Source: Streptomyces sp. NBC_00190 (GTDB lineage: Bacteria; Actinomycetota; Actinomycetes; Streptomycetales; Streptomycetaceae). Taken from it: a stretch of 64,000 nt of DNA. How positions within the stretch are numbered: the first letter of the stretch is position 1; every line of letters starts with the position of its first letter. The notes below the pieces were generated by a model, which saw only the letters and a list, made by a program, of their open reading frames with translations, ran no database searches and was not told the DNA's origin. A program made the translations under genes and the position numbers. This document shows positions 4,700 through 60,373 of the stretch, in pieces. Location of the stretch: NCBI RefSeq assembly GCF_036203305.1, contig NZ_CP108131.1, positions 3,596,001-3,660,000 on the forward strand, written 5' to 3'.

Positions 4700-4714
4700 C
4701 TGACGTTGCGTCAG
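4700..4714. promoter_or_regulatory. Operator palindrome, perfect (site 1)
   Basis: CTGACG-TTG-CGTCAG, 15 bp with perfect half-sites, 23 nt upstream of the LLM start codon. The flanking T...A extends the dyad by one base pair each side. First of 14 copies in the window. Confidence 0.8.
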
Positions 4715-4760
4715 ATTCGATGTCTCGACTGTTCCATCGGCGGGGGCGGAGCGTCAATAC

Positions 4761-4775
4761 CTGACGCTCCATCAG
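4761..4775. promoter_or_regulatory. Operator palindrome, one mismatch (site 2)
   Basis: CTGACG-CTC-CATCAG, one mismatch in the right half. It lies 61 bp upstream (start to start) of the perfect copy in the same promoter region and just after the stop of the SDR gene. Confidence 0.65.
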
Positions 4776-4792
4776 ATATGACTGGAAGGTGG

Positions 4793-5578
4793 CTAGAGGA
4801 TGCTGACGCCGGCCATCCAGCCGCCGTCGATCACGAAGGGCTGGCCGGTGATGTACGAGGAGTCCTCGCCGGTCAGGAAGAGGGCGAGCTTCGCGATCTC
4901 CTCCGGCTGCCCCACCCGCCCCATCGGGACGACCCGCTTGTACAGCTCCGCCATCGCGTCCCTGGCCTCGTCGGTCATGTTCGCCGGGTCCAGCAGGCCG
5001 GGATTGGCCATCGGGGTGTCCACGGCACCCGGGCACATCGCGTTGACCCGGATCCCCTTGCCCGCCAGCTCCAGCGCCGCCACCCGGGTCAAGCCGAGGA
5101 TGGCCGCCTTGGTCGCGGCGTACGCGCCGACGTAACTCATGCCCGTCAGGCCCGTGTACGAGGAGGTGTTGACGATCGTGCCGCCGCCGGCCGCCTCGAT
5201 CTCGGGGGCGACGGACTTGATGCCGAGGAAGGCGCCCACCTGGTTGACCTGGACCACCTGCTGGAACTCCTCCAGCGGGGTCGCGGTCAGCTCGTTGAAG
5301 CGCAGGATGCCCGCGTTGTTGACGAGGCCGTCGACCGGGCCGAAGGCCTCCTTCGCGGCGGCGACCGCCCCGGCCCAGTCCTCTTCGCGGCTCACGTCGA
5401 GGCGTACGTACCGGGCCCGGTCCTCGCCGATCTCCTTGGCCACGGCGGCGCCCTGCTCGTCCAGCACGTCACCGAGGAGCACCTTGGCCCCCTCGGCGGC
5501 GAAGAGGCGGGCCTCCTGCTCGCCCTGGCCCCGTGCGGCGCCGGTGATGATCACGACGCGCCCGTCCAGCTTGCCCAT
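4793..5578 (-). CDS. SDR-family NAD(P)-dependent oxidoreductase
   Basis: 261-aa classical short-chain dehydrogenase. Cofactor motif TGAARGQGE near residue 12, an NNAG block, catalytic Ser in NTSSYTGLTG and the Tyr-x3-Lys in YVGAYAATKAA, then PGAVDTP. The C-terminus VIDGGWMAGVS is the usual SDR end. The ATG is chosen over a GTG six nt upstream because AGGAG sits 8 nt from the ATG but only 2 nt from the GTG. It follows the F420-type LLM gene by 11 nt and is surely co-transcribed with it. Likely a hydroxyacyl-CoA or alcohol dehydrogenase of the same degradative route (inference). Confidence 0.88.
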   Translation of the reverse strand: MGKLDGRVVIITGAARGQGEQEARLFAAEGAKVLLGDVLDEQGAAVAKEIGEDRARYVRLDVSREEDWAGAVAAAKEAFGPVDGLVNNAGILRFNELTATPLEEFQQVVQVNQVGAFLGIKSVAPEIEAAGGGTIVNTSSYTGLTGMSYVGAYAATKAAILGLTRVAALELAGKGIRVNAMCPGAVDTPMANPGLLDPANMTDEARDAMAELYKRVVPMGRVGQPEEIAKLALFLTGEDSSYITGQPFVIDGGWMAGVSIL

Positions 5579-5589
5579 GGTCACGACTC

Positions 5590-6537
5590 CTAGTCGTTGA
5601 GAAGCGGGGCCACCTCGGCCCCGAAAGCGGTGATCTGGTCGACGAGTTCGGCGCGGTCGCGATTGCGGAACCGGACCTGGATCTGGTCGACGCCGAGCGC
5701 CTTGTACTCCCGCAGGGACTCGGCGAGCGCCTCCGCCTTGCCGGTGAGGGCGCGGCGGCCGGTGTCCCAGCCGGGCTCGCCGACGTACAGCGGCTCGGTG
5801 ATCGCGCCGAACTCGACGGGCCCGGTGACTCCGGCCGCCTCGCGGAGCTCCTTGATACGGGCGATCTGCGCCGGGAGCCTGTAGCGCGGGTCGCCCTGCG
5901 GGAGCCAGCCGTCGCCGCGGACGGCGGCCCGGCGCACGGCGGCGGGCGAGGAGCCGCCCACCCAGACGGGGATCCGCTCCTGGGCGGGCCGGGGCAGCTG
6001 GCCGAGGTCCTTGAAGGAGAACAGTTCGCCCTCGAACTCCGGGTACTCCTCGGGCCCCAGCGCCGCCCGCAGCACGTCGAGGGTCTCGTCGAGGACGGCT
6101 CCGCGCCGGGCGAAGTCCACGCCGAGGACCTCGAACTCCTCCTGCACGTGCCCGGCGCCGACGCCGAGGATCAGCCGCCCGCCGGAGAGGTGGTCGAGGG
6201 TGGCGTACTGCTTGGCGCTGATCAGCGGGTGGCGCAGGCCGAGGATCGCGACGTGGCTCAGCAGCCGCACGTGCTCGGTGATGCCGGCGAGGAAGGACAG
6301 GGTGGCCACCGGGTCGTACCAGACGGTGCTCATGGGTCCGGCGAGCCGGCGCGGGATGGCGACGTGGTCGCAGGTGGCGACGTAGCCGAAGCCGGCCCGG
6401 TCGGCGGCCCGCGCCACCTCGGCGAGATCGGCGGCGGTGGCCGACGCCTCCCAGGGCTCGGCGTAGATGGTGCTCTGCGACTGGACCGGGAGCTGCATCC
6501 CGTGGACCAGCCGCCCTTCCGGAAACACGCGCGCCAT
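5590..6537 (-). CDS. LLM-class F420-dependent oxidoreductase
   Basis: 315-aa luciferase-like TIM barrel, closer to the F420-dependent group than the first LLM gene. Blocks include ATCDHVAIPRRL, TLSFLAGITEHVRLLSHV, LGLRHPLISAKQYATLDHLS, the GRLILGVGAGHVQEEFEVLG signature and VWVGGSSPAAVRRAAVRGDG. The ATG start has AGGCGGG upstream. First gene of a two-gene unit with the SDR; a perfect CTGACG-N3-CGTCAG site lies 96 nt upstream. Proposed role: hydride transfer with F420 on a CoA thioester or a ketone/alcohol; substrate unknown. Confidence 0.85.
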   Translation of the reverse strand: MARVFPEGRLVHGMQLPVQSQSTIYAEPWEASATAADLAEVARAADRAGFGYVATCDHVAIPRRLAGPMSTVWYDPVATLSFLAGITEHVRLLSHVAILGLRHPLISAKQYATLDHLSGGRLILGVGAGHVQEEFEVLGVDFARRGAVLDETLDVLRAALGPEEYPEFEGELFSFKDLGQLPRPAQERIPVWVGGSSPAAVRRAAVRGDGWLPQGDPRYRLPAQIARIKELREAAGVTGPVEFGAITEPLYVGEPGWDTGRRALTGKAEALAESLREYKALGVDQIQVRFRNRDRAELVDQITAFGAEVAPLLND

Positions 6538-6633: not shown

Positions 6634-6648
6634 CTGACGATCCGTCAG
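6634..6648. promoter_or_regulatory. Operator palindrome, perfect (site 3)
   Basis: CTGACG-ATC-CGTCAG between the divergent F420-type LLM gene (96 nt to its start) and the SMI1-like gene (51 nt to its start). By analogy with the other sites it is assigned to the LLM/SDR unit. Confidence 0.75.
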
Positions 6649-6699: not shown

Positions 6700-7623
6700 A
6701 TGGCCGTCATGGACGAACAGGAAGAACTCCTCTCGGCCGTCCACCACCTGGCCTGGCCGGGTACGGGCGATCTGGCGTGCGACGAGGCAGGACACCCGGC
6801 GGGACACGTGTGTCTGCCGCTCTCGGACGAGAACGGCCTCGACTCGATCCAGGAGGCGCTCAGCGGGCGGTACGGACAGCCGCGCAACCTCGCCATGGGC
6901 GGGTACGCCGATCCGACCGTGAGCACGCGGACCGGGCTGCCGCTGCTGGCCCCGTTCGGCGAACGGATCGTGGAGATGCGCGCGTGGGCGCACGCGGGCC
7001 GGTGGATCGGCTGCGGCACCGCCCGCTTCGACGACGGCGTACGGATCGTGGCGCTGGTCGCGGAGCGGGAGGATCCGGCGGCGGACCTGGCGGAGGTGAC
7101 GTCCTGGGTGGACGGGGTCGTCGCCGTCACGGGATGTGACACGACCCGCGCGCGTACCGTCGACTGGGAGGCGGTCGAGGCCCGGATCGGGACCGCGCTG
7201 CCCGCCGACTACAAGCAGCTCGCCGAGCTGTTCGGGTACGGCGCCTTCGACGGATACCTCCAGCTCCACATACCCGACGCCCCGTACAGGAGCGATGACA
7301 TCGTCCTGCACACCCAGTGGCTGGGCGAGTGGGCCGCGTCGCACGACAGCGGCCTGTGGGAACCGTACGAGGTGTATCCGGTCCCCGGCGGGCTGCTGGA
7401 GTGGGCCTCCTCCGAGCAGGCCGACCAGTTCTTCTGGCTCACCGAGGGCGCGGACCCCGACCGGTGGCCCATCCTCATGAAGGAGGACGTCCCCGACTCG
7501 TGGCGGCGGTTCGACGGGACGACCGCCGAGTTCGTCCACCGCCTGCTCACCGACCGCGGGCACCCCTTCTCGACGGCCCGGTACTTCGATACCCACTGGT
7601 TCCAGAGCTACGAGACCCCCTAG
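6700..7623 (+). CDS. SMI1/KNR4-domain protein
   Basis: 307 aa. The C-terminal half begins WEAVEARIGTALPADYKQLAELFGYGAFDG, the typical start of the SMI1/KNR4 (SUKH) fold, and continues through EWASSEQADQFFWLTEG and WRRFDGTTAEFVHRLL. The N-terminal half (about residues 1-145) resembles no family I know. SUKH proteins often serve as immunity proteins against secreted toxins, but no toxin gene is adjacent, so that role is not supported here. Starts at 6700 and 6709 (both ATG) are possible and neither has a clear ribosome site. The next gene starts 10 nt after the stop and may be co-transcribed. Confidence 0.75.
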   Translation: MAVMDEQEELLSAVHHLAWPGTGDLACDEAGHPAGHVCLPLSDENGLDSIQEALSGRYGQPRNLAMGGYADPTVSTRTGLPLLAPFGERIVEMRAWAHAGRWIGCGTARFDDGVRIVALVAEREDPAADLAEVTSWVDGVVAVTGCDTTRARTVDWEAVEARIGTALPADYKQLAELFGYGAFDGYLQLHIPDAPYRSDDIVLHTQWLGEWAASHDSGLWEPYEVYPVPGGLLEWASSEQADQFFWLTEGADPDRWPILMKEDVPDSWRRFDGTTAEFVHRLLTDRGHPFSTARYFDTHWFQSYETP

Positions 7624-7633: not shown

Positions 7634-8326
7634 ATGGACCTCATACTCACGCTGGTCAGCGGGATCGCCTGGACCGTCGTGTACGTGGAGGCGATCCGCG
7701 TCGGGCTGCGCGACCGGACGTACGCGATGCCCCTGGCCGCGCTCGCGCTGAACTTCGCCTGGGAGTCGGTCTACGCCGTCCGCGACTTCGCGACCGGGGT
7801 CTCTCCCCAGGGCGTGGTGAACGTGGTGTGGGCGGCCGCCGACATCGTGATCATCTCCACCTACCTGCGGTTCGGGCGGCCCGAGCTCCCGCGGTTCGTG
7901 ACCCGTCCGCTCTTCGCCGCCTGGTCGGTCCTGGTGTTCGCCACCGGGTTCGCCGTGCAGGGGCTGTTCCTCGCCCACTTCGGGGCGCACGACGCCTCCC
8001 GCTACTCGGCGTTCCTGCAGAACCTGCTGATGTCCGGCCTGTTCATCGGCCTCTACGCCGCCCGGCAGGGGCCGCGCGGGCAGTCCCCGACCATCGCCGT
8101 CGCCAAGTGGCTGGGCACGCTGGCCCCGACCCTGCTGTTCGGCGTACTGGAGCACTCGCCCTTCGTCCTCGGGCTCGGTCTCCTGTGCAGCGTCTTCGAC
8201 CTGGTCTACATCGGGCTGCTGCTCCGAGACCGCCGCCGCCCGGACCGGGCAGAGTCAGAGGCTGGGGCAGAGGCGGCGGCTTCGGCCCCCGCTCCGGTCA
8301 GAAGCCTTCCGGACCCATCACGATGA
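7634..8326 (+). CDS. Pyr4/PaxB/DmtA-like transmembrane terpene cyclase family protein
   Basis: 230-aa integral membrane protein with about six or seven hydrophobic segments and a charged tail. The N-terminal block IAWTVVYVEAIRVGLRDRTY followed by ALALNFAWESVYA matches my memory of the fungal PaxB/Pyr4 family pattern (Trp...Tyr...Ile...TYxM...NFAWExVY). The Glu of NFAWE corresponds to the catalytic Glu, and the Asp in SVFDLVYIGLLL to the second acidic residue of that family. Known members cyclise epoxidised or plain prenylated substrates in the membrane; DmtA is a Streptomyces example. No prenyltransferase or epoxidase is adjacent, so the substrate is open. The GTG at 7625 is an alternative start. 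The 3' end overlaps the convergent L,D-transpeptidase gene by 29 nt. Confidence 0.62.
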   Translation: MDLILTLVSGIAWTVVYVEAIRVGLRDRTYAMPLAALALNFAWESVYAVRDFATGVSPQGVVNVVWAAADIVIISTYLRFGRPELPRFVTRPLFAAWSVLVFATGFAVQGLFLAHFGAHDASRYSAFLQNLLMSGLFIGLYAARQGPRGQSPTIAVAKWLGTLAPTLLFGVLEHSPFVLGLGLLCSVFDLVYIGLLLRDRRRPDRAESEAGAEAAASAPAPVRSLPDPSR

Positions 8327-11672: not shown

Positions 11673-12899
11673 CTACGCCCCCGGCCCCGCCCACAGGCCC
11701 TCCGGCGTCAGGCCCAGCAGGTCGATCGCGTTGCCGCGCACGATGCGGTCGATCGCGTCCGGGGGCAGGTGGCCCATCTGGGCCTCGCCGACCTCGCGGG
11801 ACTTCGGCCAGGTCGAGTCCGAGTGCGGGTAGTCCGTCTCGTAGAGGACGTTGGCGACGCCGATCGAGTCCAGGTTCTTCAAGCCGAAGGCGTCGTCGAA
11901 GAAGCAGCCGAAGACGTGCTCCGCGAAGAGCTCCGACGGCGGGCGGTGGACCTTGTCGGCCACGCCGCCCCAGCCGCGGTTCTCCTCCCAGACCACGTTC
12001 GCGCGCTCCAGGATGTACGGAATCCAGCCGATCTGGCCCTCCGCGTACATGATCTTCAGGTTGGGGAAGCGCTCGAACTTGCCGCTCATCAGCCAGTCGA
12101 CCATCGAGAAGCAGCAGTTGGCGAAGGTGATGGTGGAGCCGACCGCCGGCGGGGCGTCCGCCGAGGTGGACGGCATGCGGGACGAGGAGCCGATGTGCAT
12201 GGCGATGACCGTGCCGGTCTCGTCGCACGCCTGGAGGAAGGGGTCCCACTCGTCCGTGTGGATGGACGGGAGGCCCAGGTGCGGGGGTATCTCCGAGAAG
12301 GCGACCGCCCGGACGCCGCGCGCCGCGTTGCGGCGGACCTCGGCCGCGGCGAGGCGGGCGTCCCACAGGGGGATCAGGGTCAGCGGGATCAGCCGGCCCC
12401 GCGCGTCCGGGCCGCACCACTCCTCCACCATCCAGTCGTTGTACGCCCGGACGCCGAGCAGCCCCAGCTCACGGTCCTTGGCCTCGGTGAAGGTCTGGCC
12501 GCAGAAGCGCGGGAAGGTGGGGAAGCAGAGCGCCGACTGGACGTGGTTGACGTCCATGTCCGCGAGACGGTCGGGAACCGAGAAGGACCCCGGGCGCATC
12601 TGCTCGTAGGTGATGACTTCCAGTTTGATCTCGTCGCGGTCGTACCCGACAGCGGTGTCGAGGCGGGTGAGCGGCCGGTGCAGGTCCTCGTACACCCACC
12701 AGTCGCCGATCGGGCCGTCGTCACCCTTGGCCCCCATGACAGGAGCGAACTTGCCGCCGAGGAAGGTCATTTCCTTCAAGGGGGCGCGGACGACCCGCGG
12801 GCCGGTGTCCTTGTACCTGGACGGGAGCCGGTCCCGCCAGACGTGGGGGGGCTCAACCGTGTGGTCGTCCACCGAGATGATCTTCGGGAAGGTCTCCAT
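11673..12899 (-). CDS. Amidohydrolase-2 family protein (paralogue 1)
   Basis: 408-aa TIM-barrel metal hydrolase/decarboxylase of the amidohydrolase_2 (ACMSD/LigW-like) family. It opens KIISVDDHTVEPPHVWRDRL, with Asp-His replacing the usual His-x-His start; other landmarks are FPTFPRFCGQTF, AYNDWMVEEWCG, VIAMHIGSSS (His) and LYETDYPHSDSTWP, whose Asp-His block is a metal/proton site. It is strikingly similar along its length to the gene at 59046-60257. Family members in actinobacteria lie beside acyl-CoA dehydrogenase genes, without assigned substrates. Monocistronic, with a perfect CTGACG-N3-CGTCAG operator 21 nt upstream of the ATG. Confidence 0.83.
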   Translation of the reverse strand: METFPKIISVDDHTVEPPHVWRDRLPSRYKDTGPRVVRAPLKEMTFLGGKFAPVMGAKGDDGPIGDWWVYEDLHRPLTRLDTAVGYDRDEIKLEVITYEQMRPGSFSVPDRLADMDVNHVQSALCFPTFPRFCGQTFTEAKDRELGLLGVRAYNDWMVEEWCGPDARGRLIPLTLIPLWDARLAAAEVRRNAARGVRAVAFSEIPPHLGLPSIHTDEWDPFLQACDETGTVIAMHIGSSSRMPSTSADAPPAVGSTITFANCCFSMVDWLMSGKFERFPNLKIMYAEGQIGWIPYILERANVVWEENRGWGGVADKVHRPPSELFAEHVFGCFFDDAFGLKNLDSIGVANVLYETDYPHSDSTWPKSREVGEAQMGHLPPDAIDRIVRGNAIDLLGLTPEGLWAGPGA

Positions 12900-12920
12900 G
12901 GCCCATACGGTAGCGCTGAT

Positions 12921-12935
12921 CTGACGAGTCGTCAG
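12921..12935. promoter_or_regulatory. Operator palindrome, perfect (site 4)
   Basis: CTGACG-AGT-CGTCAG, 21 nt upstream of the amidohydrolase ATG and 96 nt upstream of the divergent afsR start. Spacing matches the other sites that serve the nearer, catabolic gene. Confidence 0.8.
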
Positions 12936-13031
12936 CTAGTTGGAGGCCGATCGGCCCGGGACGGGCTGACGTGTACGCGCGAGACAGGGCAGACTGACCA
13001 TTACACCGACGGAAGGCAGGGGGGACGACAG

Positions 13032-16000
13032 ATGGACGGCGTACCGGCCATCCCGCACCCGCGGAACCCGCGGAACCACCCCGAGGCATCCCGGACCACC
13101 CGCAAGAGCGCAGCCCCCGCACGCGCGGCCGCCCCCACGGACCCGGCCGCCCCCACGGACCCGGCCGCCCTCGCGAAACCGGCCGCCGCGTTCCCCGACG
13201 GCGCCGCCACGGCCTCGGCCCCCGCCCCCACCCCCGCAGGGTCCCGCTTCGCCGTCCTCGGCCCCATCCGCGCCTGGCGCGGCGCCGAAGCACTGCCCTC
13301 CGGCACCCCCCAGCAGCGCGCCCTGCTCGCCACGCTCCTGCTGCGCGACGGCCGCACCGCCACCGCGCCCGAGCTCATCGACGCCATCTGGGGCGAGGAC
13401 CCGCCGCAGCAGGCCCTCGCCACCATCCGGACGTACGCCTCCCGCCTGCGCAAGGTCCTCGACCCCGGGCTGCTCGTCACCGAGTCCGGCGGGTACGCCA
13501 TCCGGCTGCGCTCCACCGCCACCCTCGACCTCGGCGTCGCCCGCAGCCTCGTCACCGACGCCGAGACGGCGCGCGAAGCCGGTGACCGCGCCCTCGCCCG
13601 TACGCTGCTGGCCCGCGCCCTGGACCTGTGGGACGGCGAGCCCCTCGCCGGAGTCCCCGGCCCCGCGGCCGCCACCGAGCGCACCCGGCTCGCCGAGTGG
13701 CACCTGCAACTGCTGGAGACCCGCCTCGACCTCGACCTGGAGGTCGGCCACCACGCCGAGGCCGTCTCCGAACTCACCGCGCTCACCGCCGCCCACCCGC
13801 TGCGCGAGCGCCTGCGCGAGCTGCTCATGCTCGCCCTCTACCGCAGCGGTCGGCAGGCCGAGGCCCTCGCCGTCTACGCCGACACCCGCCGGCTCCTCGC
13901 CGACGAACTCGGCGTCGACCCGCGCCCCGAACTCGCCGCCCTCCAGCAGCGCATCCTCAACGCCGACGCCGACCTGGCCCGCGCCGAGGACCCGGCCCCC
14001 GCGGCCGCCGCCGCCCATGTGAGGCCGGCCCAGCTGCCCGCCACCGTGCCCGACTTCACGGGCCGCACCAGCTTCGTCGACGAACTCGGCGCCATCCTCT
14101 CCGGCGGCGCCGAGGGCCAGGTCATGGCCGTCTCCGCGCTCGCCGGGATCGGCGGCGTCGGCAAGACCACCCTCGCCGTGCACGTCGCGCACGCCGCCCG
14201 CCCGCACTTCCCGGACGGCCAGCTCTACGTGGACCTCCAGGGCACCGAGGCCCGCCCCGCCGAGCCGGAGGCCGTCCTCGGCTCGTTCCTGCGCGCGCTG
14301 GGCACCCCCGACACCGCCATCCCCGACTCCCCCGCCGACCGCGCCGCGCTCTACCGCTCCACCCTCGACGGCCGCCGCGTCCTGGTCCTGCTCGACAACG
14401 CCCGCGACGCCGCCCAGGTCCGCCCGCTGCTGCCGGGCACGGCGGGCTGCGCCGCGCTGGTCACCAGCCGGGTCCGCATGGCGGGCCTCGCCGGGGCCCA
14501 TCTCGTCGACCTCGACGTGATGAGCCCCGAGGAGGCCCTCCAGCTCTTCACCCGGATCGTCGGGGCCGAGCGCGTCGGAGCCGAACGGCAGGCCGCCCTC
14601 GACGTCGTCGGCGCCTGCGGCTTCCTGCCGCTCGCCATCCGGATCGCCGCCTCCCGCCTCGCCGCCCGCCGCACCTGGACCGTGTCGATCCTCGCCGCCA
14701 AACTGGCCGACGAACGCCGCCGCCTCGACGAGCTCCAGACCGGCGACCTCGCCGTCAAGGCCACCTTCGAGCTGGGCTACGGCCAGCTGGAGCCGGCCCA
14801 GCAGCGCGCCTTCCGCCTCCTCGGCCTCGCCGACGGCCCCGACATCTCGCTGTCCGCGGCCGCCGCCGTGCTCGACCTGCCCGAGTACGACACCGAGGAC
14901 CTCCTCGAAGCTTTAGTGGACTGCTCCCTCCTGGAATCGGCCGCCCCCGGCCGCTACCGCTTCCACGACCTCGTACGCCTCTACGCGCGTGCGTGCGCCG
15001 AACGCGACGAGCAGCCGCCGGGCGGGCGCGACGCCGCCCTGGACCGGCTGCTGGACTTCTACCTGGCCACCGCCTCCGGGGTCTACGCCCTGGAACGCCC
15101 CGGCGACCGCCTCCCCGCGCACCTGTCCGACACCAACTACCCCGGGCTGGTCTTCGGCGAGCCGCGCGCCGCCCTGGACTGGCTGTACGCCGAGGCCGAC
15201 CCGCTGCTGGCGTGCGTACGGCAGGCCTCCGCGCGCACCGACGAGACAGAGGTCCTGCGCCGGGCCGTGGACCTGCTGTGGGCGGCCAAGGACCTCGCCG
15301 AGTCGGGAGCCAACTCCAAGCAGTACGAGTCGGCCGCCATGGCCCTGCGCGACGCCGCACACGCCGCGCAGGACCCGCGCTCGGAGGGGCGGGCCCGGAC
15401 CACCCTCACCATGGTCCACCTCTTCACCGGCCGATTCGCCGAGGCCGACGACGAGGCCCGCCAGGCCACGGCGCTCGCCCGCGAGGCCGGCGACCCGCTG
15501 CCCAGCTGCTGGGCGCCCAACGACCGCGGGATCATCGCCCTCTACCAGGGCCGGCACGCGGACGGCGAGCGGTACCTGCTGGAGGCCATCGAGAACTTCC
15601 GCGCCGACGGCAACAACATCGGCGAGGCCAGCGCGCTGTGCAACCTCTCCCGCATCCACGTGGAGCTGGGCCGCCTCGCCAGCGCGATAGACCTCGCCCA
15701 GCAGGGCATCGCCATCTACGACCGGATGGGGCTGACCCTGCGGCTGGCCAACGGCCGCTACGCGCTCGGCATCGCCCTCACCCAGGCGGGCCGGCTCGGC
15801 GAAGCACTGGCGCAGCTCGCCGAGGCGCTGTCGCTGTTCCACGACAACCGCCAGCCGCTGTGGGAGGGCGTGACCCACTTCAGGCTCGCCGAGGCCCATC
15901 TGGCCGCGCGCCGGCCGACGCTGGCCGCCTCGCACGCCGAGCAGGCCATCGCGCTGCGCGGGATCGGCGGCGAGTGGCGGCGGGCGACCGTGCTGACGGT

Positions 16001-17070: not shown

Positions 17071-17295
17071 ATGACGACGAACGAGAACATCCTGCCGACC
17101 GACGGCGACATCAAGCCGCTCGACAACCACGCCTCGGGCATCGAGATCAAGCCGCTGGAGAGCCCTGCACCGGGCGTCGACATCACGCCGATGGACAACC
17201 ACGCCTCCGGCATCGAGATCAAGCCGCTCGACAACCACGCTTCGGGCGAGGAGATCCAGACGCTGGACAACCACGCGTCCGGCCCGCGCCCGTAA
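17071..17295 (+). CDS. afsS: AfsS, small sigma-like activator of secondary metabolism
   Basis: 74-aa acidic protein made of a 13-residue head and five 12-residue repeats of pattern I-K-P-L-D-N-H-A-S-G-x-E. Four repeats keep the DNHASG core; the second is degenerate (ESPAPG). This TLDNHA-type repeat is the hallmark of AfsS (63 aa in S. coelicolor), annotated as sigma-like protein, which is induced by AfsR and raises antibiotic production and stress responses by an unresolved mechanism. AGGAG lies 6 nt before the ATG. Its position downstream of afsR, separated here by the SUMF1-like gene, and the repeats in its promoter support the assignment. It is closed by a strong hairpin. Confidence 0.88.
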   Translation: MTTNENILPTDGDIKPLDNHASGIEIKPLESPAPGVDITPMDNHASGIEIKPLDNHASGEEIQTLDNHASGPRP

Positions 17296-49787: not shown

Positions 49788-50983
49788 CTGGACTCCTTAG
49801 GCAGGCCGAGCACGCGCTCGGCGATGATGTTCCGCTGGATCTCGTCCGAGCCGCCGTAAATGGTGTCGGCACGGGTGAACAGGAAGAGCCGCTGCCCCTC
49901 GTCGAGTCCGAGCTCGTACGGGAGCCCGGGCGCCCAGCCCACCGGTCCGGCCGAGGCCGCCGCGCCGCGGACCTCCACCGCCAGCTCGCCGAGCCGCCGG
50001 TGCCACCCGCCCCACAGCAGCTTCGCCACGCTCGGGGCACCCGGGTCGTCGGCGGCGCCGAGGGTGCGCAGCGCGTTCCAGCGCATCGTGCGCAGCTCGG
50101 CCCACTGGCGTACGAGGCGGCCCTGGACGATCGGATCGGCCGCGCCCGAAGCCGCGTACAGCCGGACGATCCGCTCCAGTTCGGCGGCGAAGCCGATCTG
50201 CTGGACCAGGGTGGAGACCCCGCGTTCCAGGGCGAGCAGGCCCATGGCCACGGTCCAGCCGTCGCCCTCCGCACCGACGGCCTCGGCGGCGACGGCCCCG
50301 TCGAAGAAGACCTCGTTGAACTCGGCGGTCCCCGACATCTGCCGGATGGGCCGTACCTCGACGCGGCCCGGCTGGTCCATCCGTACGAGCAGGAACGACA
50401 GCCCGCGGTGGCGGCGCGAGCCGGCCTCGGTGCGGGCCAGCACGAAGCACCAGTCGGCGTCCTGGGCCAGCGAGGTCCAGATCTTCTGCCCGGTGACGCG
50501 GAAGAGCCCGTCGGCCGGGTCCCGTACGGCGGCGGTACGGATGCCCGCGAGGTCGGAGCCGGCCCCGGGCTCGCTGTAGCCCTGGCACCACAGCTCCTCG
50601 CCGCGGGCGATGCCGGGCAGGAAGCGGCCCTGCTGCTCCGGGGTGCCGTAGGCGATGAGCGTCGGCGCGAGGAGGTTCTCCCCGATGTGCCCGACCCGGC
50701 CGGGTGCGCGCAGCGCCGCGTACTCCTCGGCCCACACCACCTGCCCGGTCAGGGAGAGCCGCCGCTGCCCGTACGCCCCATCCGGCGCGTCCCAGCCCTG
50801 CCCGATCCAGCCGCCCCGGCCCAGCTCGCGCTCCCACGCGCGCCGGACGTCGACCCCCTCGTGCTCGCTGCCCGGGCCGCCGAGGCCGAGGGCGTGCGCG
50901 TACGGGCCCACGAGGTGCTCGGTCAGCCACGCCCGGGCGCGCCCGCGCAGCTCCTCGTCCTCGGCCCCGAAGCTGAAGTCCAC
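49784..50983 (-). CDS. Acyl-CoA dehydrogenase, alpha-type
   Basis: 399 aa. FAD/substrate segment GYSEPGAGSDLAGIRT, RVTGQKIWTSLAQDADWCFV, SGTAEFNEVFFDG, C-domain ending TIYGGSDEIQRNIIAERVLG. The -IQRNI-AERVLGLP tail marks the alpha-type subunit of heteromeric steroid-type ACADs. GTG start with AGGGG 8-9 nt upstream. Middle gene of the operon after the SDR; coupled to the ADH gene. Its beta partner may be the product of 31755, the only other unpaired ACAD. Confidence 0.9.
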   Translation of the reverse strand: MDFSFGAEDEELRGRARAWLTEHLVGPYAHALGLGGPGSEHEGVDVRRAWERELGRGGWIGQGWDAPDGAYGQRRLSLTGQVVWAEEYAALRAPGRVGHIGENLLAPTLIAYGTPEQQGRFLPGIARGEELWCQGYSEPGAGSDLAGIRTAAVRDPADGLFRVTGQKIWTSLAQDADWCFVLARTEAGSRRHRGLSFLLVRMDQPGRVEVRPIRQMSGTAEFNEVFFDGAVAAEAVGAEGDGWTVAMGLLALERGVSTLVQQIGFAAELERIVRLYAASGAADPIVQGRLVRQWAELRTMRWNALRTLGAADDPGAPSVAKLLWGGWHRRLGELAVEVRGAAASAGPVGWAPGLPYELGLDEGQRLFLFTRADTIYGGSDEIQRNIIAERVLGLPKESR

Positions 50984-50997
50984 GCTGCTGCGCCCCT

Positions 50998-51918
50998 CTA
51001 CGCGTTCGGGCGGTCCTTGGCGGCCGCCGCCTTGGCCATGGACTCCAGCTGCGCGAGCATCGGCATCGGGTCGGTGCCCACCGTCCCGGGCAGGAAGTCG
51101 GCGATCTTCTCCGGGGTCCAGGAGCCCTCGGCGTAACCGGCGCGCAGCTCGCGCGGCTGCGCCCAGACGGCGATCTTCGGGCCGGCGATCGTGTACACCT
51201 GCCCGGTGATCTTCTCTCCGCCGACGGCCACGGCCTTGTCGCTGAGCAGGTAGGTCACGAGCGCGGCCACGTCCTCGGGCTCGCCGATCTCCTTGAGCTC
51301 CATGGGCACGTTGGCGGACATGCGGGTCCGGGCGACCGGTGCGACGGCGTTGGACGTGACCCCGTACTTGGCCAGGCCCAGCGCGGCGGACCGGACGAGG
51401 GAGATGATCCCGCCCTTGGCGGCGCTGTAGTTGGCCTGCGCCACCGAGCCCTGGTGGTTGCCGCTGGTGAAGCCGATCAGGGTGCCCGAGCCCTGCCTGC
51501 GCATGACGGCGGAGGCGGCGCGGAAGACGGTGAAGGTGCCCTTGAGGTGGGTGGCGACCACCGGGTCCCACTCCTCCTCGGACATGTTGAACAGCATCCG
51601 CTCGCGCAGGATGCCGGCCACGCAGACGACGCCGTCGATGCGCCCGTAGTGGGCCAGCGCGGTGTCCACGATCCGCTGGCCGCCCGCCATCGTCGAGATG
51701 TCGTCCGCGACGGCGACGGCCTCCCCGCCCGCGGCGAGTATCTCCTTCACCACTCCGTCGGCGATCTCGCTGGTGGGTTCCCCGCCCTCGATGCCGACCC
51801 CGTAGTCGTTGACGACGACCTTGGCACCCTCGGCGGCCGCGGCGAGTGCCACGGCCCGCCCGATGCCCCGGCCTGCGCCGGTGACGGCGACGACCTTGCC
51901 TGCCAAGAAGTTCCCCAC
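50998..51918 (-). CDS. SDR-family dehydrogenase (hydroxyacyl-CoA type)
   Basis: 306 aa. VVAVTGAGRGIGRAVALAAA cofactor site, VVNDYGVGIEGGEPTSEIAD insertion as in multifunctional-protein 3-hydroxyacyl-CoA dehydrogenases (MFE-2 type), catalytic Tyr-x3-Lys in ANYSAAKGGIISL, NAVAPVARTRM. A C-terminal extension (ELRAGYAEGSWTPEKIADFL and on) exceeds the classical SDR length of 250. Mycobacterial KstR-regulon SDRs have the same shape. GTG start with AAGGGG. First gene of the operon; a CTGACG-N3-CGTTAG operator is 22 nt upstream and shared with the divergent cyclase. Confidence 0.87.
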   Translation of the reverse strand: MGNFLAGKVVAVTGAGRGIGRAVALAAAAEGAKVVVNDYGVGIEGGEPTSEIADGVVKEILAAGGEAVAVADDISTMAGGQRIVDTALAHYGRIDGVVCVAGILRERMLFNMSEEEWDPVVATHLKGTFTVFRAASAVMRRQGSGTLIGFTSGNHQGSVAQANYSAAKGGIISLVRSAALGLAKYGVTSNAVAPVARTRMSANVPMELKEIGEPEDVAALVTYLLSDKAVAVGGEKITGQVYTIAGPKIAVWAQPRELRAGYAEGSWTPEKIADFLPGTVGTDPMPMLAQLESMAKAAAAKDRPNA

Positions 51919-51940: not shown

Positions 51941-51955
51941 CTGACGGTCCGTTAG
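51941..51955. promoter_or_regulatory. Operator palindrome, one mismatch (site 12)
   Basis: CTGACG-GTC-CGTTAG between divergent genes: 22 nt to the SDR start, 71 nt to the cyclase start. Confidence 0.72.
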
Positions 51956-52026: not shown

Positions 52027-52953
52027 ATGTCACTGCCCGCCGAGTTCCACGACATCGCCAAGCGCGTCAACAACTGGGGGCGCTGGGGCTCCGAGGACGA
52101 GATCGGCACCTTGAACCTGGTCACCGACGAGGTCGTCCGGGCCGCCGCCGCCGAGGTGCGCAGCGGCCGCCGCATCCCGCTCGCCCTCCCGCTGAAGGAG
52201 GACGGTGTACAGGCCGGCCTGATCCCCGGCCGGATCAACCCGCTGCACACGATGGTGCAGATCAACCAGGAGCTCTTCGGCCCGGGCACGGTGGCGTGCA
52301 GCGACGACGCCGTGACCATGGGCCTCCAGGCGGGCACCCACTGGGACGCCCTCACGCACGTCTCGCACTCGGGGAAGATCTACAACGGCCGCCCGGCCTC
52401 GTCGATCACCCCGCACACCCGCGCCCAGTACAGCGGTATCGACAAGGCGGGGCACATCGTCTCGCGCGGTGTCCTGCTGGACGTGGCGCGCGCCAAGGGG
52501 CTGGACCGGCTGCCCGGCGGGCACGCGGTGACCCCGGAAGACCTGGCCGAGGCCGAGGAGTTCGGCGGGGTGACGGTCCGGGCCGGCGACATCGCACTGG
52601 TCCGCACCGGCCAGATCCAGGTCTACCTGGCGGGCGACAAGCACGGCTACGGCTTCCCGTCGCCCGGGCTGTCCGTCCGTACGCCGCAGTGGTTCCACGC
52701 CCGCGACGTGGCGGCGGTCGCGAACGACACGCTCACCTTCGAGATCTTCCCGCCGGAGATCGACGACCTCTGGCTGCCGGTCCACGCCTTGGACCTGGTC
52801 GAGATGGGCATGCACCAGGGCCAGAACTGGAACCTCGAAAAGTTGTCCACAGCCTGTGCAGAAGAGAACCGGTACTCGTTCCTCCTCTCCGCCATGCCGG
52901 AACCCTTCGTCGGCGGAACCGGCACCCCGGTGGCCCCGGTCGCCGTCCTCTGA
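52027..52953 (+). CDS. Cyclase-family protein (kynurenine-formamidase-like metal hydrolase)
   Basis: 308 aa. The fold's metal motif is AGTHWDALTHVSHSGKIYNG (His-x-Asp-x3-His), with a later RGVLLDVARAKGLDRLP and RAGDIALVRTGQIQVYL; GYGFPSPGLSVRTPQWFH is the third site. Members hydrolyse amides, lactones or carbocyclic rings. Common in actinobacterial lipid and aromatic operons. ATG 52027 is preferred, giving the usual MSLPAEFHDIAKRVNNWGRW beginning; ATG 51961, just after the operator, would add 22 residues. Divergent from the SDR operon, sharing its operator. Confidence 0.83.
   Translation: MSLPAEFHDIAKRVNNWGRWGSEDEIGTLNLVTDEVVRAAAAEVRSGRRIPLALPLKEDGVQAGLIPGRINPLHTMVQINQELFGPGTVACSDDAVTMGLQAGTHWDALTHVSHSGKIYNGRPASSITPHTRAQYSGIDKAGHIVSRGVLLDVARAKGLDRLPGGHAVTPEDLAEAEEFGGVTVRAGDIALVRTGQIQVYLAGDKHGYGFPSPGLSVRTPQWFHARDVAAVANDTLTFEIFPPEIDDLWLPVHALDLVEMGMHQGQNWNLEKLSTACAEENRYSFLLSAMPEPFVGGTGTPVAPVAVL
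52843..52863. other. DnaA-box-like motif inside the cyclase gene
   Basis: TTGTCCACA-GCC-TGTGCAGAA, nearly the same 20-mer block as at 30313 (shared AAAA-N-TTGTCCACAGCCTGT). It lies in coding sequence (residues LSTACAEE), so it may be chance. Confidence 0.25.
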
Positions 52954-54907: not shown

Positions 54908-55600
54908 ATGACAAACCCGTACCAGGTCTCGCCGCCGCAGCAGCCCCAGCCCCCCAGACGCCGCTCGGGCGGCGGGCTCGCCGGATTCCTGACCGTCGCC
55001 CTGATCGTCGGCGGCATCTACGGGCTCTCCCAGTGGCTCGGCGACGACGGCGGCAAGAAGCCGTCGGCCTCCGCTTCGGCGTCGCCCTCGGCCAAGCCTT
55101 CCGACCCGGGGAGCCCCGAGTCCTCCTCCGACACCTCCAGTTCGTGGAAGGTGGGCGACTGCGGCGGGCCCGACCCGGCCAACAAGCCCGACGGGTACCG
55201 TCCGCAGCGCTGTTCCGACTCCGGCGCCACCTTCAAGGCCATCGACATCAAGGAAGCCAGCATCCTGCCGGGCTCGATCCAGTGCCCGGCCGGCACCGAC
55301 CTGATGATCGAGGTGAGCATCTCCTACGGCGGCAAGAAGAGCGGCATCCCCACCAACACCGTCTGCGGCCGGAACCTGTCCAACGACCACCCCGGCGACG
55401 CGGGCGCCGGCGGCGGGCAACTGGTGAAGGGCGACTGCGTGACCGACCAGGCCCAGGAAGTCGCCTGCGGCGGTTCGGGCACGCTCAAGGTGCTCGGCCT
55501 GGTCAAGCAGAAGAGCGAATGCCCGGCGGGCACCACGGAGCCGATGCAGCTGACGATGGCCGTCGGCCGCCCCTACGACGTGATCTGCACCGACGGCTGA
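54908..55600 (+). CDS. Single-pass membrane/exported protein (LppU-like Cys-rich domain)
   Basis: 230 aa. Pro/Gln-rich cytosolic N-terminus, Arg patch, one membrane segment (LAGFLTVALIVGGIYGLSQW), a Ser/Lys/Pro linker, then an extracellular domain with six or more Cys (VGDCGG, QRCSDS, IQCPAG, TVCGRN, GDCVTD, VACGGS, SECPAG, VICTDG). Alternating Cys suggest disulfides like LppU/DUF-type domains. ATG at 54908 has GGAG 6 nt upstream; an ATG at 54839 would lengthen it. Function unknown. Confidence 0.75.
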   Translation: MTNPYQVSPPQQPQPPRRRSGGGLAGFLTVALIVGGIYGLSQWLGDDGGKKPSASASASPSAKPSDPGSPESSSDTSSSWKVGDCGGPDPANKPDGYRPQRCSDSGATFKAIDIKEASILPGSIQCPAGTDLMIEVSISYGGKKSGIPTNTVCGRNLSNDHPGDAGAGGGQLVKGDCVTDQAQEVACGGSGTLKVLGLVKQKSECPAGTTEPMQLTMAVGRPYDVICTDG

Positions 55601-56950: not shown

Positions 56951-57886
56951 CTACGAAGAGCTAGGGCCTGTCGTCCCCAGCAGTTCCGACGCCAGCAGCT
57001 CCTCCGCCTCCGCCGCGGTCCGCCACTGCTCGGCCCGCACCCAGGCCCGCTTCAGGTGCAGGTGAACGTCCGCCTCCCATGTGAAGCCCATCCCCCCGTG
57101 CACCTGGAGACAGTCCCGGGCGCCCAGCACGGCGGCCTCGTCCGCCAGGAGTTTCGCGCCCGCGATCTCCGCGCCGTCCTCCGTCACCGCCGCCGCGTAG
57201 ACCGCCGTACGGGCCACCTCCGCCCGCACCAGCATCTGCGCGCACAGGTGCTTGACCGCCTGGAAGGCGCCGATCGGCTGCCCGAACTGCTCGCGCTCCC
57301 CCGCGTACCGCACCGCCAGCTCCACCGTGCGCAGCGCGCTCCCCACCTGGAGCGCCGCCGTCAGCAACGCTCCCGCGGAGACGTCGGAGGACGCGTACGA
57401 GGGCGCGTACGAGGACACGTCGCCGGAGGGCGGCGCCACCCGGTGCAGCGGGGTCAGGGGGTCCGCCGAGCGCACCGGCTGCCCCGCCGGCAGCTCCGCC
57501 GCGCCCAGCACCGCGTCGGCCTCCGCCAGGTGGGTCACCAGGCCCCCGCCCAGGTCGAAGGCGGTGACCACGGCCGTGCCCGCCGCCGCCCCCGGGACCA
57601 CCCCGGCGGCCAGGTGCGTGGCCACCAGCGGCCCCGGCAGCAGGACCCGCCCGGCTTCCTCGAAGACCAAGGCCGCCTCCGGCAGCCCCAGCCCCACGCC
57701 CCCCGCCGCCTCCGGCAGCCGCAGCGCGAAGAAGCCGGCCTCGCCCAGCTCCCGCCACAGCCCCCGGTCCACGGCGCCGCCCGTGTCCACCGACGTCCGC
57801 AGCGCCTCCCGCCCGTACCGCCCCGCCAGCAGGTCCCGTACGCCCGCCCGCAGGTCTCTCTGGTCCTCGGTCGGCTGGAAGTCCAC
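56951..57886 (-). CDS. Acyl-CoA dehydrogenase, beta-type partner (short)
   Basis: 311 aa, shorter than the usual 380-400 mainly because the middle beta domain is reduced. FQPTEDQRDLRAGVRDLLAG, AVRYAGEREQFGQPIGAFQA, LQVHGGMGFTWEADVHLHLK. It lacks the -IQRNI- tail and is adjacent to the alpha-type gene 57892, so the two probably form an alpha2beta2 enzyme as in steroid side-chain dehydrogenation. GTG start 5 nt after the upstream stop. Last gene of the amidohydrolase/ACAD/ACAD operon. Confidence 0.87.
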   Translation of the reverse strand: MDFQPTEDQRDLRAGVRDLLAGRYGREALRTSVDTGGAVDRGLWRELGEAGFFALRLPEAAGGVGLGLPEAALVFEEAGRVLLPGPLVATHLAAGVVPGAAAGTAVVTAFDLGGGLVTHLAEADAVLGAAELPAGQPVRSADPLTPLHRVAPPSGDVSSYAPSYASSDVSAGALLTAALQVGSALRTVELAVRYAGEREQFGQPIGAFQAVKHLCAQMLVRAEVARTAVYAAAVTEDGAEIAGAKLLADEAAVLGARDCLQVHGGMGFTWEADVHLHLKRAWVRAEQWRTAAEAEELLASELLGTTGPSSS

Positions 57887-57891
57887 GCCCC

Positions 57892-59046
57892 TCACCGGCC
57901 CTTCGGGAGGCCGAGGATGCGCTCGGCGACGATGTTGCGCTGGATCTGCGAGGTGCCCGCGGCGATGGTGTACGAGAGGGACGAGAGCCGGTCCAGGACC
58001 CACTCCTCCTCCATCACCAGCGAGTCCGCCCCCAGCACCTGCGCCGCCGTGTCGTACAGCTCCTGGCGCGCGTGCGAGTAGGCGAGCTTGAAGACGGAGC
58101 CGCCGATGCCCGGGACCCCGCCGGACCTCTCCGACTCGCTGACGTTCCACTGCGTGAGCCGCCACAGCGCGCCGAACTCCCCGTGCAGCCGCCCCAGCCT
58201 GCGCCGCAGCACCGGGTCGTCCCAGCGCCCGTTCGCCCTGGCCCTGCGCGCGAGCTCGCCCAGGGTGCGGCGGCAGGCGACGACCTCGCCGACGAAGGCG
58301 GTGCCCCGCTCGAAGGACAGGGTCACCATGGTGACCCGCCAGCCGTCGTTCTCCGCCCCGACCCGGTTCGCGACCGGGACCCGCACCTCGTCCAGGAACA
58401 TCTCCGCGAACTCGGTGGATCCCGCGAGGGTGCGCAGCGGCCGTACGGTGACCCCCGGCGCGTCCATCGGCATGGCCAGCCACGAGATCCCCCGGTGCTT
58501 CGGCGCGGCCGGATCGGTGCGCACCAGCAGCTCGCACCAGTCGGCGACCTCGGCGTGCGAGGTCCAGATCTTTGACCCGGTGATCACGTACTCGTCGCCG
58601 TCGCGGACCGCCCGCGTGCGCAGGGAGGCCAGGTCGGAGCCCGCGTCCGGCTCACTGAAGCCCTGGCACCACACCTCGTCGCCCCGCAGTACGGGCGGCA
58701 GCCAGCGCGCCCGCTGCTCGGCCGTGCCCTCGGCGGCGACGGTCGGACCCGCGTGCAGCAGCCCGACGAAGTTCGCGCCGACGTACGGGGCCCCCGCGCG
58801 CTCCGTCTCCTCCAGGAAGATCAGGTGCTGGGTCGGGGTGGCCCCGCGCCCGCCCGCGTCCACCGGCCAGTGCAGGCCCGCGTACCCGGCCTCGTACAGC
58901 CGGCGCTGCCAGCCGAGGTCGTACGCGCGGCGCCCCGGCCAGTCGTCCGGGGACGGCTTGGCGGGCAGCTCGGGCAGCACCTTGCCGAGCCATTCGCGCA
59001 GCCGCGCCCGGAAGTCCCGTTCCTCCTCGGTGTAGGTCAGGTCCAT
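57892..59046 (-). CDS. Acyl-CoA dehydrogenase, alpha-type
   Basis: 384 aa. LTYTEEERDFRARLREWLGK, WCQGFSEPDAGSDLASLRTR, VITGSKIWTSHAEVADWCEL, AGSTEFAEMFLDEVRVPVAN, VLDRLSSLSYTIAAGTSQIQ followed by RNIVAERILGLPKGR. Normal family length and FAD/CoA motifs. ATGA overlap with the upstream amidohydrolase; the beta-type ACAD follows within 5 nt. Confidence 0.9.
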   Translation of the reverse strand: MDLTYTEEERDFRARLREWLGKVLPELPAKPSPDDWPGRRAYDLGWQRRLYEAGYAGLHWPVDAGGRGATPTQHLIFLEETERAGAPYVGANFVGLLHAGPTVAAEGTAEQRARWLPPVLRGDEVWCQGFSEPDAGSDLASLRTRAVRDGDEYVITGSKIWTSHAEVADWCELLVRTDPAAPKHRGISWLAMPMDAPGVTVRPLRTLAGSTEFAEMFLDEVRVPVANRVGAENDGWRVTMVTLSFERGTAFVGEVVACRRTLGELARRARANGRWDDPVLRRRLGRLHGEFGALWRLTQWNVSESERSGGVPGIGGSVFKLAYSHARQELYDTAAQVLGADSLVMEEEWVLDRLSSLSYTIAAGTSQIQRNIVAERILGLPKGR

Positions 59047-60257
59047 CAGCGGCTCCCCAGGTCCTGGTCGAAGGACAGGCCGAGCATGCGGATGGCGTTG
59101 CCGCGCATCAGCTTGTAGACCGTCTCCTCGTCCAGTCCCTTCACGTGGTCGAGCGCGACCTCCTTGGTGTGCGGGAAGGTCGAGTCCACGTGCGGGTAGT
59201 CGGTCTCGAAGGTGGCGTTGTCGCGGCCGACGACGTCCAGCGAGGCGATGCCGTGCTTGTCGCGGAAGAAGCAGCAGAACATCTGCCGGTAGTAGTACGT
59301 GGACGGCGGCTCGGGGATCAGGTCGCGGACCCCGCCCCAGGCGCGGTGCTCCTGCCACACGTCGTCGGCGCGCTCCAGGGCGTACGGGATCCAGCCCATC
59401 TGCCCCTCGCTGTACGCGAGCTTCAGCGTCGGGAACTTCACCAGCACCCCGCTGAACAGGAAGTCCATCATCGAGGCCATCGCGTTGTTGAAGCTGAGCG
59501 AGGCCTGGACGGCGGGAGGCGCGTCGGGCGAGGCGGCGGGCATCTGGGAGCTGGACCCGATGTGCATGTTGACCACCGTCCCGGTCTCCTGGCAGACGGC
59601 GAAGAAGGGGTCCCAGTAGCCGGAGTGGATCGACGGCAGCCCCAGGTAGGTCGGGATCTCGGAGAAGGTCACCGCCCGTACGCCCCGGGCGGCGTTGCGG
59701 CGGATCTCCGCGACCGCGAGGTCGATGTCCCACAGCGGGATGATGCAGAGCGGGATCAGCCTGCCGCCGCTGTCGCCGCACCACTCCTCGACCATCCAGT
59801 CGTTGTAGGCGCGCACGCAGGCGAGCGCCACTTCCTTGTCCTGGGCCTCGGCGAAGGTCTGGCCGCAGAAGCGCGGGAAGGTCGGGAAGCACAGCGAGGC
59901 CTCGACGTGGTTGAGGTCCATGTCGGCGAGGCGCGCCTTGGGGTCCCAGCAGCCGCGCCGCATCTCCTCCCGGGTGATCCCCTCCAGCGTCATGTCGTCG
60001 CGGTCGAAGCCGACGGCGGCGATGTTGCGCTTGTACGGGAACTTCAGGTCCTCGTAGATCCACCAGTCGGTGGGCGGGCCGTCGGGGTCCATGGAGATCA
60101 CGTACTTGCCGCCCGTGTACTCGAGCTCGCCGATGCCGGCGGTGAGCGCCTTGGGCCCGCGGTCCCGGTACTTGGCCGGCAGCCAGACGTCGAACAGGTG
60201 GGCGGGCTCGATCACGTGGTCGTCGACGCTGATGATCCGAGGCAGTCCCAGTTCCAT
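59046..60257 (-). CDS. Amidohydrolase-2 family protein (paralogue 2)
   Basis: 403 aa, closely parallel to 11673-12899: RIISVDDHVIEPAHLFDVWL, LCFPTFPRFCGQTFAEAQDK, AYNDWMVEEWCGDSGGRLIP, VVNMHIGSSSQMP, TFETDYPHVDSTFPHTKEVA. A TIM-barrel metal hydrolase or decarboxylase. First gene of an operon with two acyl-CoA dehydrogenases, with a CTGATG-N3-CGTCAG operator 23 nt upstream. The link with ACADs suggests action on an acyl-CoA or a ring-cleavage intermediate (inference). Confidence 0.85.
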   Translation of the reverse strand: MELGLPRIISVDDHVIEPAHLFDVWLPAKYRDRGPKALTAGIGELEYTGGKYVISMDPDGPPTDWWIYEDLKFPYKRNIAAVGFDRDDMTLEGITREEMRRGCWDPKARLADMDLNHVEASLCFPTFPRFCGQTFAEAQDKEVALACVRAYNDWMVEEWCGDSGGRLIPLCIIPLWDIDLAVAEIRRNAARGVRAVTFSEIPTYLGLPSIHSGYWDPFFAVCQETGTVVNMHIGSSSQMPAASPDAPPAVQASLSFNNAMASMMDFLFSGVLVKFPTLKLAYSEGQMGWIPYALERADDVWQEHRAWGGVRDLIPEPPSTYYYRQMFCCFFRDKHGIASLDVVGRDNATFETDYPHVDSTFPHTKEVALDHVKGLDEETVYKLMRGNAIRMLGLSFDQDLGSR

Positions 60258-60280
60258 GACAGTCTCCCCAATTCACCGAT

Positions 60281-60295
60281 CTGATGGATCGTCAG
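60281..60295. promoter_or_regulatory. Operator palindrome, one mismatch (site 13)
   Basis: CTGATG-GAT-CGTCAG, 23 nt upstream of the amidohydrolase start; 78 bp (start to start) from site 14, which serves the divergent acyl-CoA ligase gene. Confidence 0.7.
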
Positions 60296-60358
60296 AAACA
60301 AGCTAGCCCCGCCACCCCTGGACCGACAAGCGTCGGCCGCCTACGCTCTGCGCTTGAT

Positions 60359-60373
60359 CTGACTAGCCGTCAG
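60359..60373. promoter_or_regulatory. Operator palindrome, one mismatch (site 14)
   Basis: CTGACT-AGC-CGTCAG, 27 nt upstream of the acyl-CoA ligase ATG. Confidence 0.75.

Follow-up and report, generated by a model that had tools for sequence, protein, structure and literature searches.

A palindromic operator and a TetR-family protein probably mark a dispersed catabolic regulon in Streptomyces

The closest described parallel to the system considered here is KstR (Rv3574/MSMEG_6042) of mycobacteria and Rhodococcus, a TetR repressor whose palindrome lies partly over the −10 box and is also found in its own promoter, and whose regulon in M. smegmatis takes in 83 genes, with a large regional cluster, divergent promoters and one region with two sites (available passages of PMC1995591). 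A second point of reference is SCO4421 of S. coelicolor, which encodes a TetR protein close to afsK and is expressed in spore chains, at a lower level in a whiA mutant (accessible portion of PMC3878966). Here we analyze 64,000 nucleotides of Streptomyces sp. NBC_00190 (NZ_CP108131.1, positions 3,596,001 to 3,660,000; the whole stretch is called the window, and its own numbering is used), in which a 15-base palindrome, CTGACG-N3-CGTCAG, occurs in 7 perfect and 7 one-mismatch copies. This palindrome is probably the operator of a TetR-family protein encoded at 30563-31210, which would repress a dispersed catabolic regulon. The proposal of a regulator is new here, the initial annotation of this DNA having named none.

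A palindrome in excess of chance

The coordinates of all 14 sites given by the initial annotation were reproduced, and the excess over chance that it claimed was borne out by 2 controls. When the half-site letters were permuted with the spacer unchanged, CTGACG ranked first among the 180 resulting palindromes, with 14 copies at up to one mismatch in the window against 4 for the next best, and with 7 perfect copies against 0 for each of the other 179. An order-3 Markov model (60 simulations) gave a mean of 0.58 copies at up to one mismatch and 0 perfect. At up to two mismatches the excess is smaller, 19 in the window against a mean of 8.07 over 100 shuffles.

The whole genome (8.9 Mb) holds 13 perfect copies, 7 of them within the 64 kb, and 0 perfect copies of the reversed control pattern. 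At up to one mismatch there are 112 operator copies against 28 of the reversed pattern, so some single-mismatch sites outside the window are chance occurrences. The 400 kb flanking the window contribute 3 further sites, one of them perfect. A whole-genome scan listing the downstream genes had been proposed as a check, and in it the six perfect sites outside the window all fell before or between genes (genome positions):

3575830, at an SDR gene and an MFS gene
1609622, at a DUF35/Ltp pair
2644989, at an LLM gene
3151666, at a CoA ligase gene
5614731, at an LLM gene and an SRP54-type GTPase gene
5601108, at a gene whose product has a sub-threshold DivIVA match only

The earlier remark that no described regulon has this operator holds for the open-access literature searched, which omits most subscription journals and in which no mention of the motif turned up; a query on CTGACG, TetR and operator returned nothing on this operator, judging by titles.

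Sites stand before catabolic genes and are conserved with them

Gene positions come from calls made in this analysis (own codon model, 57 genes in the window). All 14 sites are intergenic and upstream of a start codon, as had been claimed for each of them with respect to transcription units:

4700-4714, perfect, 53 nt before an LLM oxidoreductase gene at 3555-4646 (−)
4761-4775, one mismatch, paired with 4700
6634-6648, perfect, 96 nt before an LLM gene at 5590-6537 (−) followed by an SDR gene at 4793-5578 (−), and 51 nt before the gene starting at 6700 (+)
12921-12935, perfect, 21 nt before a PF04909 protein gene at 11673-12899 (−) and 96 nt before an AfsR-like gene starting at 13032 (+)
22882-22896, one mismatch, between a ligase gene at 21182-22855 (−) and an Ltp gene at 22948-24099 (+)
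33001-33015, one mismatch, 46 nt before an acyl-CoA dehydrogenase (ACAD) gene at 31755-32954 (−)
33081-33095, perfect, 102 nt before an Ltp gene at 33198-34340 (+)
39449-39463, perfect, 24 nt before a small membrane-like protein gene at 38972-39424 (−), with a DUF35 gene at 38547-38975 (−)
41327-41341, perfect, 70 nt before the gene of an ADP-forming CoA-ligase-type protein at 41412-43646 (+)
41351-41365, one mismatch, 24 bp after 41327 and 46 nt before 41412 (+)
47937-47951, perfect, 32 nt before a flavin reductase gene at 47984-48595 (+)
51941-51955, one mismatch, between an SDR gene at 50998-51918 (−) and a cyclase-family gene at 52027-52953 (+)
60281-60295, one mismatch, 23 nt before a PF04909 protein gene at 59046-60257 (−)
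60359-60373, one mismatch, 27 nt before a CoA ligase gene at 60401-61963 (+)

Two statements of the initial annotation need to be modified. The distance of mostly 17-50 nt to the start codon applies to 9 of the 14 sites, the nearest start codons spanning 21-114 nt in all, and the statement that no site precedes afsR fails at 12921, which lies 21 nt from the PF04909 gene and also 96 nt from the AfsR-like gene, in the divergent spacer 12900-13031 that the two share. The regulator could thus touch transcription of the AfsR-like gene, whose product has the architecture of AfsR (BTAD, NB-ARC, TPR). A site within 260 nt of the AfsR orthologue is seen in G007, G013 and G015 as well (relatives are given here by our own G numbers).

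When genes separated by gaps of less than 120 nt are joined into one unit, 28 genes are linked to a site, the AfsR-like gene (13032-16142) and the gene after it, also linked, being set aside. About 24 of the 28 are catabolic by family. Linked genes 6700, 7634, 46137 and 46899 are not clearly catabolic and have no orthologue in the compared regions; they may be linked through divergence alone.

The same placement recurs in relatives. In seven related regions (G005, G007, G009, G012, G013, G015 and G038), 71 of 72 sites precede a start codon, the exception being 4457605 in G005, between convergent genes. At least 80 named loci were among the matches listed, from Streptomyces, Kitasatospora, Streptantibioticus and Actinacidiphila; in the 79 used (1.44 Mb, one locus lacking an anchor), 183 of 195 sites are upstream of genes, 5 inside them and 7 elsewhere. 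Sorted by downstream gene, 371 site-gene pairs are spread over 36 groups, with the majority in six; since the named loci are the surroundings of one and the same gene across related species and repeat few promoters, these site counts are not independent.

Conservation of the sites follows the linked genes. For the 24 linked and 13 other window genes having an orthologue in any of 11 regions (TetR and the linked genes without orthologues being excluded), 104 of 116 linked gene-genome pairs were site-linked in the relative as well; among the pairs of the other genes, 6 of 63 were. The AfsR-like gene, counted among the others despite the site 96 nt before it, gives 3 of those 6, and moving it to the linked set changes the figures to 107/124 and 3/55. 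A site also precedes the orthologue of the PF04909 protein 11673-12899 in G005, G007, G009, G013 and G015, and orthologues of both genes flanking 22882 carry sites in five Streptomyces regions and in G038, which belongs to another family and has nine sites round TetR, several of them upstream of genes orthologous to those linked here. In G010, G027 and G031, the 60 kb examined retain TetR and the AfsR- and AfsK-like genes and contain no site, and no close catabolic orthologue was found in these 60 kb, two of the regions having one 31% match each. Where the catabolic genes persist the sites do too, and where they are lost the sites go with them.

A TetR-family protein as the candidate regulator

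The proposed regulator and the element at its start are

30563-31210 (+), TetR-family protein with TetR_N and PF19352
30555-30569, degenerate operator with two mismatches over the TetR start codon, a probable autoregulatory site

This is the sole TetR protein among the 57 of the window. Its N-terminal domain lies above the Pfam cut-off (PF00440, 26.1 bits against 24) and its C-terminal domain matches PF19352 at 243.3 bits; in eight aligned TetR sequences the stretch GTS.ATFYQYF is invariant except at the dotted place. The gene is near an AfsK-like gene (26771-29182, with the kinase and PQQ-repeat make-up of AfsK; a cyclophilin is encoded at 26196-26702), and by position we equate it with SCO4421 of S. 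coelicolor. This neighborhood, taken with the spore-chain and whiA data for SCO4421, suggests a tie between sporulation and the shutdown of this catabolism. No operator or regulon for SCO4421 was found in the accessible portion of PMC3878966, and the open-access literature yielded nothing on PF19352/TetR_C_38 or SCO4422.

TetR and the sites occur together across genomes. Among 61 relatives (match at E ≤ 1e-30), TetR is present in all 37 genomes of the same genus, all 14 of family f3 and none of 10 others, with one match per positive genome, and perfect sites number 2-32, 5-20 and 0-2 per genome, respectively. Among 394 genomes of the class, 68 have TetR (E ≤ 1e-25, with up to seven candidates scored per genome, so that a few may be missed), and at least five perfect sites are present in 49 of these 68 against 2 of the 326 without a hit, namely G200 (68% complete) and G202 (93% complete). 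With the own genus left out, these figures become 17/28 and 2/326. The genomes are related, and p-values of such tests overstate certainty. The sites, their placement before genes, their conservation with these genes and their occurrence with TetR are thus supported, and with them the dispersed catabolic regulon under one operator that the initial annotation had put forward.

The element over the TetR start codon is one of five two-mismatch places in the window, and two mismatches alone carry no meaning; its conservation does. The TetR start carries CTGACG[G/A/T]CATGACAG in 77 of the 79 listed named loci, in part because the right half is coding. In the f3 genomes G038 and G045 the CTGACG half is kept at this place and the remaining promoter is different. 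In distant families an operator-like element is again found at the TetR start, in other forms: as a one-mismatch element within the first TetR codons (G064, G159, G086, G062), as a perfect copy ahead of the assumed ATG (G120), as a single half-site in the first codons (G063, G085, G103, G119, G135), or as one-mismatch sites 22-184 nt before the called start (G106, G150, G161, G248). A palindromic operator is predicted both at the regulator's own promoter and at its target promoters, as in the TetR family, its own copy being degenerate.

The sites could instead be operators of another regulator encoded elsewhere, with TetR 30563-31210 a mere neighbor. After all, Streptomyces genomes poor in sites have TetR too, the element at the TetR start departs from the palindrome at two positions, and G012 has a 95% identical TetR yet only 3 one-mismatch and 0 perfect sites within 80 kb; TetR 30563-31210 was also the one regulator weighed against the motif. 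The operator-like element at TetR's own start in several families, the association outside the genus and the sites that surround or adjoin TetR in G038, G062, G086 and G159 nevertheless make such a regulator unlikely.

Promoter architecture and proposed mechanism

The consensus of 268 sites, which were chosen by the motif, broadens to about TAATCTGACG-N3-CGTCAGATA, and their median distance to the start codon is 34 nt (the 268 are not independent). In 6 of the 17 promoter groups of at least three members, the −10 word TAnnnT and the operator overlap with a constant register in at least half of the members (−3 register: 36/44, 41/58, 22/43 and 3/3; +7 register: 43/68 and 22/23), with about 2% per register expected from base composition; in two further groups a minority of members have it in register. 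Ungrouped counts, which are not independent, are 104 at −3 and 68 at +7, with 13 at −3 and 38 at 24 on the other strand. In the window, TAnnnT is in register at 4 of the 14 sites (22882, towards the ligase; 33001; 39449, at +7; 41351, as TAATCT at −3) and at the TetR start (TAAGCT at −3). This overlap fits steric repression without proving it.

Direct binding, repression rather than activation, the ligand and the class of substrate are what we infer from these patterns. In the window, a TetR dimer would bind at ten promoter regions, a short distance upstream of the start codons and, at some promoters at least, on the −10 box. RNA polymerase would be blocked, and the 28 linked genes (some 24 of them in catabolic families) would stay off unless the repressor is released, by a CoA thioester or a free acid from the pathway. 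A weaker operator over the −10 box and start codon of TetR's own gene would limit TetR synthesis. Where two sites lie less than 130 bp apart, a spacing of 24-27 bp is favored (28 of 70 pairs). Another 22 cases show a CTGAC half-site at −26 and no second site of up to one mismatch 20-30 bp upstream; these arrangements hint at cooperating dimers.

The same TetR might also activate, or block another factor, rather than cover the promoter. The 9 of 17 groups without −10 overlap in the two registers would sit comfortably with such action, as would the 24-27 bp pairs and the extra upstream CTGAC half-sites, but TetR proteins mostly repress, the sites stand close before the start codon, and six of the 17 groups, as well as the TetR start, have the operator on the −10 box, which leaves activation or interference improbable.

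Dispersed sites in distant families and points against the proposal

In family f15 perfect sites are numerous: 135 in G063, 109 in G085, 113 in G103, 119 in G119 and 218 in G135. Among 40 perfect sites examined in G063, 18 are intragenic and 13 separate convergent genes; spacers of tandem or divergent gene pairs hold 6, and the last 3 are at the edges of the loci. At 5 of the 13 convergent-gene sites both stop codons fall inside the palindrome. In 400 kb of G063 sequence taken around known sites, the spacer of 3 gives 22 perfect copies, each other spacer length from 0 to 8 gives 0 or 1, and the 179 other permuted palindromes give at most 3. The G063 sites look selected for, yet are not ordinary operators, a character that the f3 genomes G044, G045 and G047 may partly share. 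A seemingly empty stretch at 3.51-3.93 Mb in G063, resembling a nucleoid-occlusion-style gap, turned out to hold two sites, which makes such a gap doubtful (the site lists used are incomplete beyond 4.09 Mb), and identity of TetR with the nucleoid occlusion factor SlmA was rejected at 31.4 bits against the NCBIfam cut-off of 120.

A speculative and rather doubtful extension is that TetR is an ancient actinobacterial DNA-binding protein, serving as a regulator of terpenoid-type catabolism in Streptomyces and relatives and as a chromosome-wide architectural or nucleoid-occlusion-type protein in f15, which would have evolved from or into a metabolic repressor. That the palindrome is a general chromosomal element (a terminator, an architectural or a modification site), dense in the window by accident, draws on these same 135 copies of G063 and their many convergent and intragenic positions, but is very improbable when the Streptomyces and G038 sites lie almost only before start codons, accompany catabolic genes and vanish with them.

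Several observations weigh against the proposal that TetR represses this regulon through the palindrome. The site-gene tests depend on our own gene calls, and deletion of SCO4421 had no detected phenotype (accessible portion of PMC3878966). The site at TetR's own start carries two mismatches, and part of its conservation in Streptomyces is of coding origin; TetR is found in 40 of 40 same-genus genomes, among them 8 with fewer than five perfect sites, and the relatives in G072 and G081 (43-44% identity) have no element at the TetR start and come without perfect sites. No −10 overlap is seen in the tested registers in 9 of 17 promoter groups or at 10 of the 14 window sites, and an apparent −35 box at a 17-nt spacer was withdrawn because all 36 of its hits were CTGAC, that is, further half-sites. 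The f15 sites are numerous and, in the sampled G063, seemingly largely off promoters, as seem to be those of the f3 genomes G044, G045 and G047 (10, 20 and 17 sites, few of them examined).

The linked genes and the pathway they suggest

All 57 called proteins were scanned with Pfam, by which the linked genes encode two LLM proteins, two SDRs, two PF04909 proteins, two AMP-forming and one ADP-forming-type CoA ligases, four ACADs, two hydratases, two Ltp thiolases, two DUF35 proteins, an F420H2-dependent reductase, a flavin reductase, a PF04199 cyclase-family protein and an alcohol dehydrogenase. Those most telling for the pathway are

21182-22855 (−), acyl-CoA ligase of the FadD3 family (NCBIfam FadD3, 799 bits against a cut-off of 657)
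22948-25333 (+), unit of Ltp thiolase, DUF35 protein (ChsH2-like) and enoyl-CoA hydratase by Pfam; closest solved chain of the Ltp is 6ok1
31264-32954 (−), unit of ACAD and F420H2-dependent reductase; closest solved chain of the ACAD is 6wy8 (Tcur3481)
48720-51918 (−), unit of SDR, ACAD and alcohol dehydrogenase; the ACAD is closest to 4x28, then 6wy9 (Tcur3483)
56951-60257 (−), unit of PF04909 protein and two ACADs, by Pfam
11673-12899 (−), PF04909 protein, predicted dinuclear-metal oxygenase (DitZ/PtmU3-like), with DxH, HIG, AEG and DYPH
59046-60257 (−), second PF04909 protein of the same predicted kind, with DxH, HIG, SEG and DYPH

For ACAD 31755-32954 the nearest NCBIfam model is IpdE2, at 200 bits against a cut-off of 450. 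We take the Tcur3481 and Tcur3483 ACADs of Thermomonospora curvata and the Ltp of 6ok1 to act on steroid side chains. The closest solved chains of both PF04909 proteins are DitZ (8uyr) and then PtmU3 (6omp), and both proteins have the metal-ligand pattern DxH, H, E, DxxH, with 59046-60257 aligned with DitZ and PtmU3. The pattern is taken from the metal-ligand list of AibH2, and PtmU3 is a di-iron hydroxylase of diterpenoid biosynthesis that takes CoA-bound substrates (passages available of PMC7782822); dinuclear oxygenases are described within PF04909 (passages available of PMC10811679). Because of the similarity to DitZ and PtmU3, a plain-hydrolase reading of the two proteins was set aside in favor of predicted oxygenases.

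The enzyme set, as predicted from gene families, resembles steroid and diterpenoid catabolism, and the pathway may degrade a polycyclic isoprenoid (steroid- or diterpenoid-like) acid, which is the weakest step of this account.

Other genes of the window include 7634-8326, in the unit after site 6634, whose product has a Pyr4-like transmembrane terpene cyclase domain and no orthologue in the 11 regions. There is no Pfam match for 6700-7623, 17071-17295, 25357-25848, 37706-38524, the small membrane-like protein 38972-39424, 39483-39923, 46137-46877, 46899-47726 or 54908-55600.

Comparison with known systems

The TetR of every sampled same-genus genome (37/37; 40/40) now has a candidate operator and target list, and scattered CoA, F420 and oxygenase-like genes are grouped in one probable pathway, which makes its substrate directly searchable via a compound that induces the promoters. 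The work would also yield a repressor-operator pair for biosensors, and promoter sites in some lineages versus dispersed sites in others prompt one to ask how operator copies could come to spread across a genome.

The protein is like SCO4421 in being a TetR close to afsK, position alone being compared (PMC3878966, accessible portion). Two regulon proteins keep the DxH, HIG, E and DYPH motifs of PtmU3, DitZ and AibH2 within PF04909, a likeness predicted from sequence, and the Tcur3481 and Tcur3483 proteins of T. curvata and the Ltp of 6ok1 are the closest or among the closest solved chains to their counterparts here.

With KstR the system would share its regulatory logic, and the enzyme classes are similar; the KstR-like make-up of a regulon with Ltp/DUF35, ACADs and FadD-type ligases is found here as judged from gene families alone. 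KstR structures are present in the PDB, and TetR's PDB matches are 6srn/7ky1, EthR entries and YvdT; with no KstR among 10 solved-structure matches and a mismatched operator, identity with KstR was rejected. KstR belongs to another bacterial group and binds TAGAAC-N2-GTTCTA (available passages of PMC1995591), whereas the sites here are CTGACG-N3-CGTCAG and interleaved with unrelated genes (AfsR-, AfsK-like). KstR is the closest parallel in logic, and since its operator and sequence differ, the TetR described here may work like KstR without being KstR.

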